From the NCBI RefSeq assembly GCF_003258315.1, contig NZ_CP030032.1, positions 2,209,804 to 2,273,803 on the forward strand: a stretch of 64,000 nucleotides of DNA, written 5' to 3'. Of this stretch, positions 1-10,355 are shown piece after piece (position 1 is the stretch's first letter; every line of letters begins with the position of its first letter). This stretch comes from Bradymonas sediminis. Its GTDB lineage: Bacteria > Myxococcota_A > Bradymonadia > Bradymonadales > Bradymonadaceae. The notes under the pieces are model-generated. The model made no database searches. It was not told the DNA's origin and saw nothing but the letters and a program-made list of their open reading frames with translations. The translations under genes and the position numbers were made by a program.

Positions 1-1946
1 TGAACTTCGGCGACCGCTTTGAGCTGCCGGTCGTTCTGCAAAACCAGACCGACGCGCCGATGCAGGTAAAAGTCGCCGCGCGCGCGGCAAACCTGACCTT
101 CGGAAAAGCCCCGGGGCGCCTGGTCGAAGTCCCTGCCAATGACCGCGTCGAGGTGCGCTTTAAGGCGGTCAGCGATATGGCCGGCACCGCGGTGATTCAG
201 GTCGCCGCGGCCTCGGGCAGCGCCGCGGACGCCGCCACCAACGAGCTGCCGGTGTGGACGCCGGCGACCACCGAGGCGTTCGCGACCTACGGCACCGTCG
301 ATAAAAACGGCGCCATCATGACCCAGCCGGTCGCCCCGCCCTCGGACTCACTGAGCCAATTCGGCGGCCTGGAGGTCACGACCTCCTCGACCGCCCTGCA
401 GGGGCTGACCGACGCCCTGCTCTACCTGGCGAATTACCCCTATGAGTCGGCCGAATCGATCGGCTCGCGCATCATGGCCATCGCGGCGCTTCGCGATGTC
501 TTGCAAGCCTTCGAGGCCGAGAAGCTCCCCAGCGAGGCCGAGCTCATCGCGACCGTTGAGCGCGATGTCGTCGAGCTGGGCAAGCTCCAGCGCCCCGACG
601 GTGGCTTCTATCTGTGGTCACGCTACGACTATTTCCGCTATCCCTTCACCGAAGTGCATATCAACCACGCCCTGCAGCGCGCGAAGCTCAAAGGCTTTGA
701 GGTGCCCGACGCGATTCTGAATCGCTCGAAATCCTTTCTGCATAATATTCGCGCCTATATTCCGGCCCATTATTCGAAGTTGGCCCGCAACACCGTGATG
801 GCCTACGCTTATTATGTGCTTGATTTAATGGGGGAATCCGTCCACGCCAAAGCGCTTGAATTGGCGAACGAGAAGCCGGGCGAGGCGATCTCGCTGGAGG
901 CGATTGGCTGGTTGATGAATACGCTTGAAGACGCACCGGAGGCCGACGCGCGCGTCAAAGAACTGACGCGTTATGTGCAAAACCGGGTCGATGAGACCTC
1001 GGGCAACGCTCAATTCACCACCGATTATGGCGGCACCGACCACGTGCTGATGCACTCGCTTCGGCGCACGGACGCGATCCTGCTGGACGCCTGGATCGCC
1101 AATCACCCCAAGAGCGACCTCATCCCCAAATTGGTGCGCGGCCTGCTCGCCCACCGCGTGCGCGGGCATTGGCGAAATACCCAGGAGAACGTCTTCGTGC
1201 TGCTGGCGCTGGACCGTTATTTCCAGGCCTATGAGAAGACCACGCCGGAATTCGTCGCGAATATGTGGCTGGGCGACGGCTTCGTCGGCGGCCACAGCTT
1301 TAAGGGACGCAGCAACGATTACCAAAAGGCGAGCATCCCGATGAAGTCGTTGATTGAGAAGAGCGGCGAGGACAAGGCCGCGGACCTGGTCATCCAGAAG
1401 GACGGCGAAGGTCGTCTGTATTATCGCATCGGCATGAGCTACGCGCTCAAATCACTCAAGCTGGAGCCGGCCGATTACGGCTTCACGGTTGAGCGAAGCT
1501 ACGAAGGCGTTGATGACCCGGCCGACGTCACCCAGCGCGAAGACGGCACATGGGAGGTCCGAAACGGCAGCCGCGTGCGGGTGCGCCTGACGATGGTCGC
1601 GCCGGCGAGGCGCTATCATGTGGCGCTGGTCGACCCGCTACCCGCGGGGCTCGAGCCGCTTAACCCCGCGCTGGCCGTCACCGAGCCGATCCCCGCGGAC
1701 GCCAACGCGGCAAAACCCGCCAGCCCCTATTGGTGGTGGTACCGTCCGTGGTATTCGCACCAGAACCTTCGCGACGAACGGGCCGAAGCCTTCGCGCCGT
1801 ATTTGGGCGCGGGCGTGCACGAATATACCTACGTGACCCGGGCGACGACCCCCGGCGAGTTCGTGGTGCCGCCGACCAAGGCCGAGGAGATGTATAGCCC
1901 CGAGACGTTTGGGCGCACGGGGACGGCGCGGGTGATCGTGAGGTGA
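1..1946 (+). CDS. Alpha-2-macroglobulin family protein, C-terminal part, thioester motif lost (5' end outside window)
   Basis: The reading frame is open from the left edge (first full codon at base 3) and ends in TGA at 1944-1946, so this is the last ~647 residues of a longer gene. It aligns without visible gaps to residues 1404-2049 of the next gene, including the same closing segments (APARRYHVALVDPLPAG, SPYWWWYRPWY). Bacterial alpha-2-macroglobulins are periplasmic protease traps that form a Cys-Gln thioester in a GCxEQ motif. At 444-458 this copy reads ESAES where the neighbour reads GCSEQ, so Cys and Gln are both gone and no thioester can form. The frame is otherwise intact, which argues against a decaying pseudogene. 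Any function must therefore rest on non-covalent trapping or a structural role, as in thioester-less members of the superfamily; that is inference. Confidence 0.9.
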   Translation, partial: NFGDRFELPVVLQNQTDAPMQVKVAARAANLTFGKAPGRLVEVPANDRVEVRFKAVSDMAGTAVIQVAAASGSAADAATNELPVWTPATTEAFATYGTVDKNGAIMTQPVAPPSDSLSQFGGLEVTTSSTALQGLTDALLYLANYPYESAESIGSRIMAIAALRDVLQAFEAEKLPSEAELIATVERDVVELGKLQRPDGGFYLWSRYDYFRYPFTEVHINHALQRAKLKGFEVPDAILNRSKSFLHNIRAYIPAHYSKLARNTVMAYAYYVLDLMGESVHAKALELANEKPGEAISLEAIGWLMNTLEDAPEADARVKELTRYVQNRVDETSGNAQFTTDYGGTDHVLMHSLRRTDAILLDAWIANHPKSDLIPKLVRGLLAHRVRGHWRNTQENVFVLLALDRYFQAYEKTTPEFVANMWLGDGFVGGHSFKGRSNDYQKASIPMKSLIEKSGEDKAADLVIQKDGEGRLYYRIGMSYALKSLKLEPADYGFTVERSYEGVDDPADVTQREDGTWEVRNGSRVRVRLTMVAPARRYHVALVDPLPAGLEPLNPALAVTEPIPADANAAKPASPYWWWYRPWYSHQNLRDERAEAFAPYLGAGVHEYTYVTRATTPGEFVVPPTKAEEMYSPETFGRTGTARVIVR

Positions 1947-1965
1947 TGGCGAGGTGGCCGTGAGG

Positions 1966-2119
1966 TGATGGTGTTTTTTCGGGTTCGCGACGCCTCCGGG
2001 GGCTCCCTGCTTTGCGGGGGTTCGTGGCGTCTCGAATGGCCCTTAATATCCGGTGTGCGTTGCCCTTCTGAGGACTCACCCCCGGTTACAGAGGTCCCGC
2101 TACGCGGGACGGCGCTGCG
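1966..2119. repeat. Intergenic direct repeat, copy 1 (about 154 bp)
   Basis: This stretch recurs almost unchanged at 2187-2340. It contains CTCACCCCCGGTT (2075-2087) and a perfect hairpin of GTCCCGC, TAC, GCGGGAC (2094-2110). A second shared block, TTTAATGAGCG(A/T)AGCGACGTG, follows each copy at about 2161 and 2369, so the repeat period is about 210-220 bases. The 1947-2624 spacer between the two alpha-2-macroglobulin genes is mostly made of this. Short ORFs across it are not credible genes. Confidence 0.85.
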
Positions 2120-2186
2120 GCTTCGCCTACGCTCATTGGCTGCCTTGTTTTCACGATGCCTTTAATGAGCGAAGCGACGTGTGGTG

Positions 2187-2340
2187 GATGGTGGTTTTCT
2201 CGGGTTCGCGACGCCTCCGGGGGCTCCCTGCGTTGCGGGGGTTCGTGGCGTCTCGAATGCCCCTTAATATCCGGTGTGCGTTGCCCGTTTGAGGACTCAC
2301 CCCCGGTTACAGAGGTCCCGCTACGCGGGACGGCGCTGCG
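2187..2340. repeat. Intergenic direct repeat, copy 2 (about 154 bp)
   Basis: Second copy of the block at 1966-2119, differing at scattered single bases. It carries the same GTCCCGC-TAC-GCGGGAC hairpin at 2315-2331. After 2433 the rest of the spacer, up to the next gene at 2625, shows no repeat, hairpin or credible ORF that I can support. Confidence 0.85.
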
Positions 2341-2432
2341 CTTATTAACAACGGTTATTCGTGAGGTTTTTAATGAGCGTAGCGACGTGTGGTGGAGCGA
2401 AGCGGAACCACACCTTTGGAACCGGGGGTGAG
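2296..2432. repeat. Inverted repeat arms closing the intergenic repeat block
   Basis: The 13-mer CTCACCCCCGGTT at 2296-2308 is matched in perfect inverse complement by AACCGGGGGTGAG at 2420-2432, and weaker complementarity continues inward (ACAGAGGT against ACCTTTGG). The element therefore has palindromic ends as well as internal direct repeats. This resembles a non-coding MITE- or BIME-like unit, but no transposase or target duplication was recognised. Confidence 0.65.
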
Positions 2433-2624
2433 CCCCGCATAGCAACGGCTATTCGGAAAAACACAAACTCTCGGAAAGCGATGATCTCTGAGAAAGCAAG
2501 GAGTCCCCGGTCCGACGCGAATCAAAAACGCACCAAACACGCACCAAACACGCATCAAATGCTATTAGCCCCGGTAATTAACGATACCCCGCTATTTTCA
2601 AAATTTTCGAAAGAGAAATAAATA

Positions 2625-5600: not shown

Positions 5601-8600
5601 GAGAACGGCGCCTGGAAGGAGATCGAGCGCGACACCCAAACCTGCCAGTTGACCTCGGACGCGACCCCGCAGACCTGTGAGTTTAGACCCGAGCGCGGCG
5701 GCGCGTGGCGCATCAGCGCGCTGACCCACGACCAAAACCGTCGGCCTAATATGACCCAGATGCGCATCTGGGTCGCTGGCGGCGAAGCGCCGCCGAATCG
5801 CGACGCCGAAAAACTCGCCGTTGAGATCATCCCCGAGCAAGAAACCTACGCCGCCGGCGACACCGCGCGCCTCTTGCTTCAGGCGCCATTTACCGACGCC
5901 GAAGCGCTTATCAGCGTGCGCCAAAACGGCATCGTGTCGCGCGAGCGCGTTAAATTCGAGGGGACGAGTCATACCTTCGAATATGCCGTCAGCGAGGCGG
6001 ATTACCCCAACGTCCTGGTCCAAATTGATCTGGTTGGCAGCATGCCGCGCGGCAAAAAATCCGGCGCCGCCAGGGATAATAATGGGCCCAAGATGCCCGC
6101 CTATGCGACGGGTTCGATTACCCTCAAAGTCCCGCCGGCCCGACGCGTCCTCACCGTCGACGTCGCCCCGCAGGTCGACGCGCTTGCGCCGGGCGGACAG
6201 ACCCAGATTAACCTCAAGGTCAGCGACGCCGACGGCAAGCCCGTGGACGCCGCCACCATCGCGGTCGTCGCGGTCGATGAGGCAATCCTCGCGCTCAGCG
6301 GTTATACCCTCAAAGACCCGATCAGCTCGTTTTACCCGCATAAACCCACCCTCGTCGATGATTATTATCTGCAGGACTACCTCTTGCTCGCCACGCTCAA
6401 CGACCTGAAGGCGATTGAGCTCGGCGGGGATCTGAGCGCCGAAGATCTCGATGATATGGAGTTTGAAGAGGCGCCCGCCGAGCGGCTTGAGTCGCGCGCA
6501 GAAGCCGCCCCCATGGCGCCCAAGATGATGAAAAAGTCGTCTGCGATGAGCAAGAATGACGCTGCATCCGGGAGCGCGCGCGGTTTAGGCGGGTCGGCAG
6601 AGGCCAAGCCCATCGCTCTTCGCTCGGATTTCCGCCCCCTCGCCCTCTTCTCGCCGATGGTTCGCACCGCGGCCAATGGCGAAGCCAGCATCCGCATTAA
6701 GCTGCCGGATAATCTGACGCGCTACCGCCTGATGGCGGTCGCGGTGGCAGGCGATGATCAATTCGGCAAGGGCGAGTCGACGCTGACCGCCCGACTCCCG
6801 CTGATGGTGAGGCGTTCGCCGCCGCGCTTCCTAAACTTCGGCGACCGCATCGAGATGCCGGTGGTCGTGCAGAATCAGACCGATAAGGCGATGAAGGTGA
6901 AGATCGCTGCGCGTGCGTCGAATCTTCGCCTCGGCGAGAACCCGGGGCGCCTCATCGAAGTCCCGGCCAATGACCGCGTCGAGGTTCGCTTTAAGGCAGT
7001 CACCGAGATGGCCGGCGAGGCGGTGATTCAGGTCGCTACGGCATCGGGCAATTGGTCGGATGCCGCGACAAACGAGCTGCCGGTGTGGTCGCCGGCGACC
7101 ACCGAGGGCTTCGCCACCTACGGCACCGTCGACAAAGACGGCGCAATGATGACCCAGCCGATCTCCGCGCCCTCAGACGCGCTGAGCCAATTTGGCGGCA
7201 TGGAGGTCACGACCTCATCGACCGCCTTGCAGTCGCTGACCGACGCGCTGATCTACCTGGTCGACTACCCCTTTGGCTGCTCCGAGCAGATCGCATCGCG
7301 GGTGATGGGCGTCGCGGCGCTTCGCGACGTCTTGCAGGCGTTTGAGTCCGAGAAGCTCCCTAAAAAGGACGAGCTGATTGCGGCGGTCGACCGCGACATT
7401 AAGGAGCTTCAAAAACTCCAGCGCGGCGACGGCGGCTTCTACCTGTGGTCCTCGCGCGACAACTATCGCTACCCCTTCGTCGAGGTGCATATCACCCACG
7501 CGCTGCATCGCGCGAAGAGCAAAGGCTTCGCGGTGCCCGACCGCATGTTGGCCCAGGCGATTCGCCACATCAAAGAGATCGAGCGCTATATCCCCGGCAG
7601 CTACACTGAGCTGGCCCGAAACGCCGTCAAAGCCTACGCCTATTATGTGCTGGACCTGCTGGGCGAAGATGTCCACGCCGACGCGCGTAAATTGGCGGCG
7701 AAGAAGCCGGTCGACGAGCTCTCGCTGGAGTCCATCGGCTGGCTGATGACCACCCTCGCCGACGACACGCGCGCCGACAAGCGCGTCGCGGAGTTAACGC
7801 GCTTCCTGCAGAATCGGGTCGACGAGACCGCCGCTGCCGCCCAATTCACGTCCTCCTATGGCGGCACCGATCACGTGCTGATGCACTCGAGCCGGCGCAC
7901 CGACGCGGTGCTCATGGACGCCTGGATCGCCACTCAGCCCAAGAGCGACCTCATCGCGAAGATCGTGCGCGGGCTAATGAGCGGGCGCAAACGCGGCCAC
8001 TGGCTCAACACCCAGGAGAACGTCTTCATCCTGCTGGCGCTGGACCGCTACTTCCAGGCCTACGAGAAGCAAACGCCCGACTTTGTCGCAAATATCTGGC
8101 TGGGCGACGGCTTCGTGGGCGGGCACGACTTCAAGGGACGTAGCACCGACTATAAAAACGCGAGCATCCCGATGAAGTCGGTGATCGAGAAGACCGGCAA
8201 AGACGCCGCGAACCTCGTCATCCAAAAGAAAGGCGACGGCCGCCTCTACTACCGCATTGGCATGGACTACGCGCTAAAATCCCTGCGCGTCGACGCGGCG
8301 GATTATGGCTTCGCCGTGGAGCGCCAATACGAGGGCGTCGACAACCCCGAAGACGTCACCCAGCGCGAAGACGGCACCTGGGAGGTCAAAAACGGCAGCC
8401 GGGTGCGCGTGCGCCTGACCATGGTCGCCCCGGCGCGCCGCTACCACGTCGCGCTGGTCGACCCGCTGCCGGCCGGGCTCGAGCCGCTCAACCCCGCGTT
8501 GGCGGTCACCGAGGCCGTGCCCGAGGACACCAACGCGGCCAAACCCGCCAGCCCCTATTGGTGGTGGTATCGCCCCTGGTACGAGCACCAGAACCTGCGC

Positions 8601-9434: not shown

Positions 9435-10250
9435 CTAATGCGAGTGCTTCACGCGCTTAGGCTTGGGCTTTCTCCAACCCTCCTGCGGGTTAAAATGGAG
9501 CGGCACTTCGCGGATGGTGATGCCTTTTCCGCGCGGGGCGGGGAACTCCATGGTCATAACCGATTCGACCAGGCAACTCTCGGCCTGGGGGCTCTCGAGC
9601 GTCGAGGATTTAATGCCCACGCGCTCCGGCGGCCCGGCCACGCGAATCGATATATTTAGCACGACGCGCCCGGTGGGCTTTTCGGTCGCCAATTCGTAGC
9701 ATTGGTCGATCTCGTCTTCGTGGGCGATGAAGACATCGCGCACTTCTTCGCGCGTCAAACCCCATCGCTGATAGGCGCTGATGGGCTCCTCGAAGGCGAC
9801 GGCGTCGGATTTGGCGTCGAAAATAAAGGTCTGATAATAGGTCGCGCCGTGGTCGGACTTTCCGTATTGGAGGCCTCCGATCATTTCTTCGAGGCAGGTG
9901 CCAACCTCCGGGCTGACCACGTCGCGATTGACGACGCGCACCTTCGAGGGAGTCCCCGAAGATGGCAATTGCACCTCGACCTCGACGCGCGTCAACTCCT
10001 CACTCGCGCCCTCGCCCTGCCCGGCCTCAAAACAATCGCGAAGCGACGCCTGATTGGCCTCATGGATATGCCCGACGGTCTCGGAGCGCGGCTTGAGCTG
10101 CGCCGTGCGGCTAAGCTCTGAGTCTTTCGCCACGTCGTCGGGCGCCGCGGCGCAACCGATCAAAAGAACGGCCGCAGCGCCGCCAACCACGGCGTTACGC
10201 GACAATCGACCCAAAGAAGCCACCGAAACCGAGTCCAAAAGCTGCTTCAT
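9435..10250 (-). CDS. Lipoprotein with two AgmX/PglI C-terminal-like repeats
   Basis: 271 residues from ATG at 10250, chosen over an earlier frame opening because AGGGTG lies upstream and the signal peptide then starts cleanly (MKQLLDS...). The signal ends in lipobox LLIGC followed by AAAPDD. The mature part holds two copies of a ~80-residue unit: a helix ending in DCFE or QCYE, a beta stretch (VEVEVQLP.., VVLNISIRV..), then CLEEMI or CLVESV and a strand. This Cys-to-Cys layout is the C-terminal domain named AgmX/PglI in myxobacteria, often found behind TonB-like or FHA segments. Here it stands as a plain lipoprotein without the proline-rich spacer. The function of the domain is not established; a cell-envelope or motility role is inference. 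Confidence 0.75.
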   Translation of the reverse strand: MKQLLDSVSVASLGRLSRNAVVGGAAAVLLIGCAAAPDDVAKDSELSRTAQLKPRSETVGHIHEANQASLRDCFEAGQGEGASEELTRVEVEVQLPSSGTPSKVRVVNRDVVSPEVGTCLEEMIGGLQYGKSDHGATYYQTFIFDAKSDAVAFEEPISAYQRWGLTREEVRDVFIAHEDEIDQCYELATEKPTGRVVLNISIRVAGPPERVGIKSSTLESPQAESCLVESVMTMEFPAPRGKGITIREVPLHFNPQEGWRKPKPKRVKHSH

Positions 10251-10355
10251 AATAATGCACCCTGCGTAATATCGAGGTTCAAATAATGTCATTAGCTTAT
10301 GCGTGGCGAGTATGCCACGCGGCGCCGGGTTGGGGCAATCGCGCAGTGACGCGGC

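Follow-up and report, generated by a model that had tools for sequence, protein, structure and literature searches.

A tandem alpha-2-macroglobulin of Bradymonas sediminis with both thioester residues replaced by serine: a candidate non-covalent trap

The upstream member of a tandem pair of alpha-2-macroglobulin (A2M) genes in Bradymonas sediminis is an intact gene that has lost its thioester through a precise two-residue replacement, remains under constraint, and has counterparts with the same loss among its relatives. Our preferred reading, held with modest confidence, is that a duplication was followed by the two-residue loss and that the upstream copy would act as a stand-alone, bait-triggered, non-covalent trap rather than as a required partner of its twin.

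The preliminary description of the window, which is the whole 64,000-nucleotide stretch of DNA analysed, had set ESAES at 444-458 against GCSEQ in the matching frame of the downstream copy, and both motifs read as claimed. ESAES is encoded by GAG TCG GCC GAA TCG, in frame with an ORF that reaches its stop at 1944-1946. The 5' part of the gene, missing from the window, proved intact to the lipoprotein start: the full gene (L005:6068-12250) starts ~4.2 kb before the window (about window position -4236) and encodes a complete lipoprotein of 2,060 residues with zero stops. The start is plausible, with an ATG and a lipoprotein N terminus (MNSDPTKSGF...FLGAC) that contains the lipobox FLGAC. The A2M (PF00207), bait-region (PF07703, E 1.3e-20) and bMG10 (PF17973) domains all scored above their curated cut-offs, and the bait region consisted of a conserved domain with a fast-evolving bait tail rich in Met, Pro and Gly. 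AlphaFold2 modeling of the C-terminal 753 residues predicted an intact fold (mean pLDDT 86.4) of the MG-TED-MG type, whose best Foldseek matches were Salmonella Sa-A2M (4u48) and E. coli ECAM (5a42/4ziq). All four pocket residues (Tyr1558, Tyr1560, Met2043 and Tyr2044) were retained. At the CXEQ thioester motif that marks Type I A2Ms, the upstream copy reads SAES, and the downstream copy carries the motif. The features of the pair are listed in Table 1.

Table 1. Positions of the tandem A2M genes and their features in the window
Feature	Position	Strand	Evidence or detail
Upstream A2M, C-terminal 647 residues (from residue 1414)	3..1946	+	ORF; Pfam A2M_BRD, A2M, bMG10, MG2, Big_5
Thioester domain (TED) of upstream copy, approximate	264..1463	+	predicted alpha-alpha fold intact; AlphaFold2, Foldseek
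Tyr1558-Pro-Tyr1560, TED lock tyrosines of upstream copy, kept	435..443	+	equivalent to Sa-A2M Tyr1175/Tyr1177
Ser1562 at thioester Cys position, upstream copy	447..449	+	TCG
Ser1565 at thioester Gln position, upstream copy	456..458	+	TCG; CAG to TCG requires at least 2 base changes
bMG10 (CTMG) domain of upstream copy	1479..1904	+	PF17973, E 4e-37
Met2043-Tyr2044, CTMG latch residues of upstream copy, kept	1890..1895	+	equivalent to Sa-A2M Met1625/Tyr1626
Spacer between the twins, 678 bp	1947..2624	.	palindromic interspersed repeat, two copies at 1973-2119 and 2194-2340
Downstream A2M, 2,049 residues	2625..8774	+	lipobox ...LLSAGC; Cys30 at 2712-2714
Bait-region domain (A2M_BRD) of downstream copy	5823..6296	+	PF07703, E 1.6e-16
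Intact thioester motif GCSEQ of downstream copy	7275..7289	+	GGC TGC TCC GAG CAG; Cys 7278-7280, Gln 7287-7289

The downstream twin has the same domain layout as the upstream gene, and identity between the proteins is 60% overall and 72-75% across the TED half (75% over MG-TED-MG10). The neighbors of the upstream gene are the twin, an asparaginase gene and a DEAD-box helicase gene, with no adjacent pbpC. The genome, a single contig of 5.05 Mb that is 99.8% complete, contains four full-length A2M genes. The other two (L006 and L007) have intact motifs, GCTEQ and GCLEQ, and each precedes a putative PBP1c ORF (711 or 794 aa, read from its N terminus), which appears to be the usual Type I arrangement.

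Several further elements were observed around the pair. The repeat in the spacer is a GC-rich, palindromic, 147-bp REP-like interspersed element; its two copies are 97% alike, and about ten related copies lie elsewhere in the genome. The C-terminal 335 residues of a third A2M are encoded by a fragment (L005:136-1188; G000:C1:2199635-2200687) that lies ~9 kb left of the window, 4.9 kb ahead of the upstream gene. It comprises the end of a TED and a bMG10 domain, is 72-74% identical to the twins, and is truncated at its 5' end next to an AbiD/Abi_2 gene and a RhuM-like ORF; the array was therefore once longer. Also near the A2M locus is a four-gene cluster (L008:5490-12920; G000:C1 about 2190489-2197919) with weak matches to JetC (MukB/DUF3584) and JetD (DUF2220/DUF3322/DUF2399) and with two short genes at the JetA and JetB positions that matched no PADLOC model. 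This cluster appears to be a divergent Wadjet-like system.

The origin of the pair was traced with a relative (G013) that has one A2M gene of the same type at the same locus. This solitary gene reads ECSEQ (codons TGC TCC GAG CAG), and it is flanked on one side by an asparaginase gene (72% identical) and on the other by a homologue of the window gene at 9435-10292. A FastTree tree with G013 as the outgroup placed the twins as sisters with full support and branch lengths of 0.22 and 0.23. Since the twins are sisters with the ECSEQ-bearing, single-copy G013 gene outside them, the duplication came first, and one daughter then lost its thioester. No orthologue of the upstream copy from another species was found in the collection, in which the genus Bradymonas has one genome and whose relative scan excludes near relatives, and the loss appears to be lineage-specific. 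Gene conversion between the twins was considered and is unneeded: their identity reaches 82% in the final 330 residues, but in every comparison bMG10 is the domain with the highest conservation, and the synonymous distance in bMG10 (0.65) is like that in the TED (0.68).

The loss was precise. Conservation in 90 CxEQ-bearing relatives reached 93% or more at 173 columns of the TED half, and the upstream copy differs at four of these (C1562S, Q1565S, Y1658F and P1895L). The columns of Y1658F and P1895L are changed in the downstream twin too, which departs at seven in total. The only two private departures of the upstream copy are therefore exactly the thioester Cys and Gln, both replaced by Ser; two random departures would fall on those columns with a chance of ~1 in 15,000 (1/C(173,2)). 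The four motif codons are TCG GCC GAA TCG upstream versus TGC TCC GAG CAG downstream. The commonest motif of the family is E-C-A/S-E-Q, and compared with this form the upstream copy has only two replacements, Ser for Cys and Ser for Gln: the leading E of ESAES is the usual family residue and the second E is kept. The motif, called erased in the preliminary description, has thus lost both thioester residues but is not wholly erased.

Thioester loss was also found repeatedly among relatives. The motif C.EQ was absent from 26 of 142 aligned TED regions, one of which (L147) has a gap at the motif. The tree of these regions required 13 changes of thioester state, at least 11 of them forced by well-supported branches, and 16 changes were needed when 60 further Myxococcota loci were included; the count is approximate, because some long branches (L058 and L151) come together in the FastTree tree. 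Thioester loss arose about 13-16 times in the subfamily, in tandem and in solitary genes. One array member has lost the motif in G014 (DFSES beside YCTEQ), G020 (SSSRD beside ECSEQ), G021 (GNLEQ beside GCLEQ) and L085 (EGAEQ beside DCAEQ), so that the recurrence in other tandem pairs, about which the preliminary description asked, does occur; in the L058 array, it is the downstream member that lacks the thioester. Solitary Myxococcota genes without a thioester read EGSEQ, SGTEP and, near a contig end, AWAEQ. An old, stable thioester-less clade (ESSEG, DSAEE, DSADE, SSSDA) is formed by Chloroflexota and two Actinomycetota-assigned metagenome-assembled genomes (MAGs). At least four genomes (G032, G036, G037 and G040), all MAGs of unstated completeness, have a single A2M detectable by A2M family search, and it is thioester-less.

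Two observations on these relatives stand apart. The Chloroflexota members with ESSEG, DSAEE or DSADE (L090, L092, L096, L099, L111, L116, L121, L125 and L110) are well conserved, several also lack the lock tyrosine, and the clade could be defined as a type of its own. In the four-A2M array of G003 (L052/L053; G003:C3:61000-95500), one gene split between frames (1736 + about 435 aa) is present in two copies, ~12.1 kb apart, that are identical across the compared TED region; the cause is either duplication of a frameshifted unit or programmed frameshifting.

We compared tandem with solitary genes. Outside Chloroflexota and Actinomycetota, the motif was lost in 5/25 tandem versus 3/92 solitary genes (Fisher p = 0.011). 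The difference was not significant over all loci (p = 0.33) or in phylogenetically independent pairs (median p 0.5), and the motif was intact in every gene read of four arrays, namely G008 (four genes), G003 (four, two of them split), L070 (two) and L087 (three). Loss as a rule of tandem pairs was rejected on these grounds, and the pattern is only suggestive of loss being commoner in such pairs. The phylum-wide search scored two candidates per genome, so that distant array members may be missed; 20-kb stretches were read directly.

These data bear on the proposal in the preliminary description that the first copy is a partner or decoy of the second. A copy that works only with its twin, as a subunit of a hetero-oligomer, as a regulator, or as a decoy that is sacrificed by having its bait cleaved first, would fit the five arrays (G000, G014, G020, G021 and L085) in which one member has lost the thioester, always beside an intact member, and also the excess among tandem genes outside Chloroflexota and Actinomycetota. 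Against it are the solitary thioester-less copies, some in genomes without another detectable A2M, the arrays of two to four members that are all intact, the L058 array with its downstream loss, and the null result in independent pairs. To our knowledge, the bacterial Type I A2Ms studied so far are monomers, which also counts against dependence on a twin. We consider such dependence rather unlikely, and a stand-alone trap is favored because the loss recurs in solitary genes and in single-A2M genomes. Of the suggested repurposing after duplication, the duplication, the loss and the maintenance of the copy hold, but a role tied to the second copy is not supported.

The residues around the lost thioester had different fates in the relatives. 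The lock residue Tyr1558 is Tyr in 173/173 thioester-bearing copies of the subfamily and is replaced by His, Ser, Gly or Arg (or a gap) in 11/29 thioester-less copies, which keep the CTMG Met in 26/29 and the CTMG Tyr in 25/29 cases. We infer that Tyr1558 would serve the chemistry and be freed once the chemistry is gone, and that the CTMG latch would serve the conformational switch and stay. A latch that outlasts the thioester accords with a cage that the bait triggers and that captures without a covalent bond.

The upstream copy was compared with the two known bacterial types. It resembles Type I A2Ms (E. coli YfhM/ECAM and Salmonella Sa-A2M) in its domain order (MG...BRD-MG-TED-MG10), lipoprotein signal, lock tyrosines, CTMG Met-Tyr and best fold matches, and differs from them in lacking CxEQ, in the pair not being adjacent to pbpC, and in its larger size (about 2,050 aa) and N-terminal Big_5 domain. 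The subfamily profile scored E. coli YfhM at 437 bits versus 185 bits for YfaS, the latter from the longest open piece of a gene annotated as a pseudogene in K-12, and the sequences nearest to the upstream copy bear the thioester. With Type II (P. aeruginosa MagD and E. coli YfaS), it shares the absence of CXEQ, the kept bait region and, probably, the non-covalent mode of trapping; it differs in lying outside a six-gene mag/yfa operon and in deriving from a thioester-bearing parent after duplication. The mag-operon markers DUF1175 and DUF2138 had no match in the whole genome, with a positive E. coli control. With these markers absent and the profile nearer to YfhM than to YfaS, membership of Type II was rejected. 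By sequence, the upstream copy is a Type I-like protein that lost its thioester, not Type II by descent or context, and by analogy it probably works like Type II.

The target of the upstream copy might be something other than a protease, such as an injected peptidoglycan hydrolase or another effector, and the TED would then serve as the binding module. Precedent comes from thioester-less MagD, which shields P. aeruginosa from peptidoglycan-targeting effectors of the T6SS (PMC12663445), and the host family consists of predators, exposed to the enzymes of other cells (PMC7460792). However, the conserved bait domain and its fast-evolving tail are as expected for a protease target, and no concentration of changes in the TED surface was found. 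We regard such redirection as unlikely.

We examined whether the upstream copy is constrained. The dN/dS between the twins was 0.36 overall, 0.30 in the TED (dS 0.68) and 0.12 in bMG10. Tajima counts of private changes were 242 upstream versus 202 downstream (chi2 3.6, not significant). Single-base codon changes in the upstream lineage were 62 nonsynonymous (N) and 146 synonymous (S) overall (TED, 9/34; bMG10, 1/22), and those in the downstream lineage were 59 N and 149 S (TED, 11/21; bMG10, 5/9), against a neutral expectation of about 3 N to 1 S. Purifying selection on the upstream copy is strong and equal to that on its twin, in answer to the question of constraint raised at the outset. Relaxed decay after duplication, with the copy a still-open pseudogene in the making, would accord with its slightly higher number of private changes and with the acceleration of some other thioester-less paralogues (L058, L146 and L151). 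The open frame, the equal rates and the low N:S ratio, which in the TED and bMG10 is below that of the twin, indicate that the copy is not decaying; it has 2,060 codons without a stop and only two private departures at conserved columns. Decay, which the preliminary description had tied to orthologues retaining the motif, fails on these selection data even though the single-copy orthologue does retain it, and we consider it improbable. A sequencing or assembly error at the motif, or a chimera of the copies, is hardly credible, with four bases changed in two codons (TGC to TCG and CAG to TCG) without a frameshift, the two intervening codons changed too, and a nearly complete, single-contig genome.

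The preferred reading of a stand-alone trap would involve the following steps. The ancestral locus held one thioester-bearing envelope A2M lipoprotein, between the asparaginase gene and the gene now at 9435-10292. Duplication in the Bradymonas lineage was followed by replacement of the thioester Cys and Gln by Ser in the upstream daughter, with its bait region, TED, CTMG and TED-CTMG docking residues held by purifying selection. Cleavage of the upstream bait by a protease would close the cage and swing the TED, and the protease would be held non-covalently, as in MagD. The downstream twin would be the covalent version, and the pair may cover proteases that differ in size, lysine content or reversibility.

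Analogy suggests that the upstream protein has remained a conformational trap triggered by its bait. The non-covalent reading of the preliminary description has an experimental precedent in MagD, which lacks CXEQ and held a protease that cleaves its engineered bait (PMC5764988). In Sa-A2M, the thioester is shielded by the TED residues Tyr1175 and Tyr1177 and by CTMG Met1625-Tyr1626, and the chain freed by bait cleavage displaces the shielding contact (PMC4498604). A thioester-inactivated Salmonella A2M failed to trap its protease (PMC5764988), so the Type I architecture does not by itself ensure non-covalent trapping. A further point against the analogy is that MagD, of the other type, uses operon partners, which are absent from the B. 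sediminis genome.

Thioester-less paralogues are known in animals, among them C5, TEP6 and ovostatin (PMC5489563). As in complement C5, Drosophila TEP6/Mcr and ovostatin, a duplicated thioester protein has here lost its thioester and apparently stayed functional, and TEP6 likewise has Ser for Cys (PMC5489563). The Bradymonas copy differs in being bacterial, recent, tandem and envelope-anchored, and in the replacement of the Gln too. Thioester-less bacterial A2Ms were already known; what is new is the repeated, surgical loss inside a Type I-like lineage. In a literature search that covered few subscription papers, we found no account of repeated loss in such a lineage or of such tandem pairs.

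These results look like a recurring change of trapping mode, not a broken gene. Thioester-less A2Ms may constitute a recurrently reinvented bacterial class, an idea that we put forward tentatively, as somewhat short of probable: about 13-16 losses in one Type I-like subfamily (Myxococcota, Chloroflexota and others), with the bait, TED and CTMG latch under selection, would make a non-covalent, possibly reversible trap a stable alternative to covalent capture, sometimes in tandem with it. Type II A2Ms have so far been treated as one operon-bound family, with thioester-free trapping unexplained. The twins provide a natural, nearly matched pair with and without the thioester (75% identical over MG-TED-MG10, adjacent, in one genome), alongside many independent losses. 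Such pairs make it possible to test directly what a conformational bait trap gains from the thioester, and they can separate residues that serve the chemistry from those that serve the cage, as with the lock tyrosine versus the CTMG latch.
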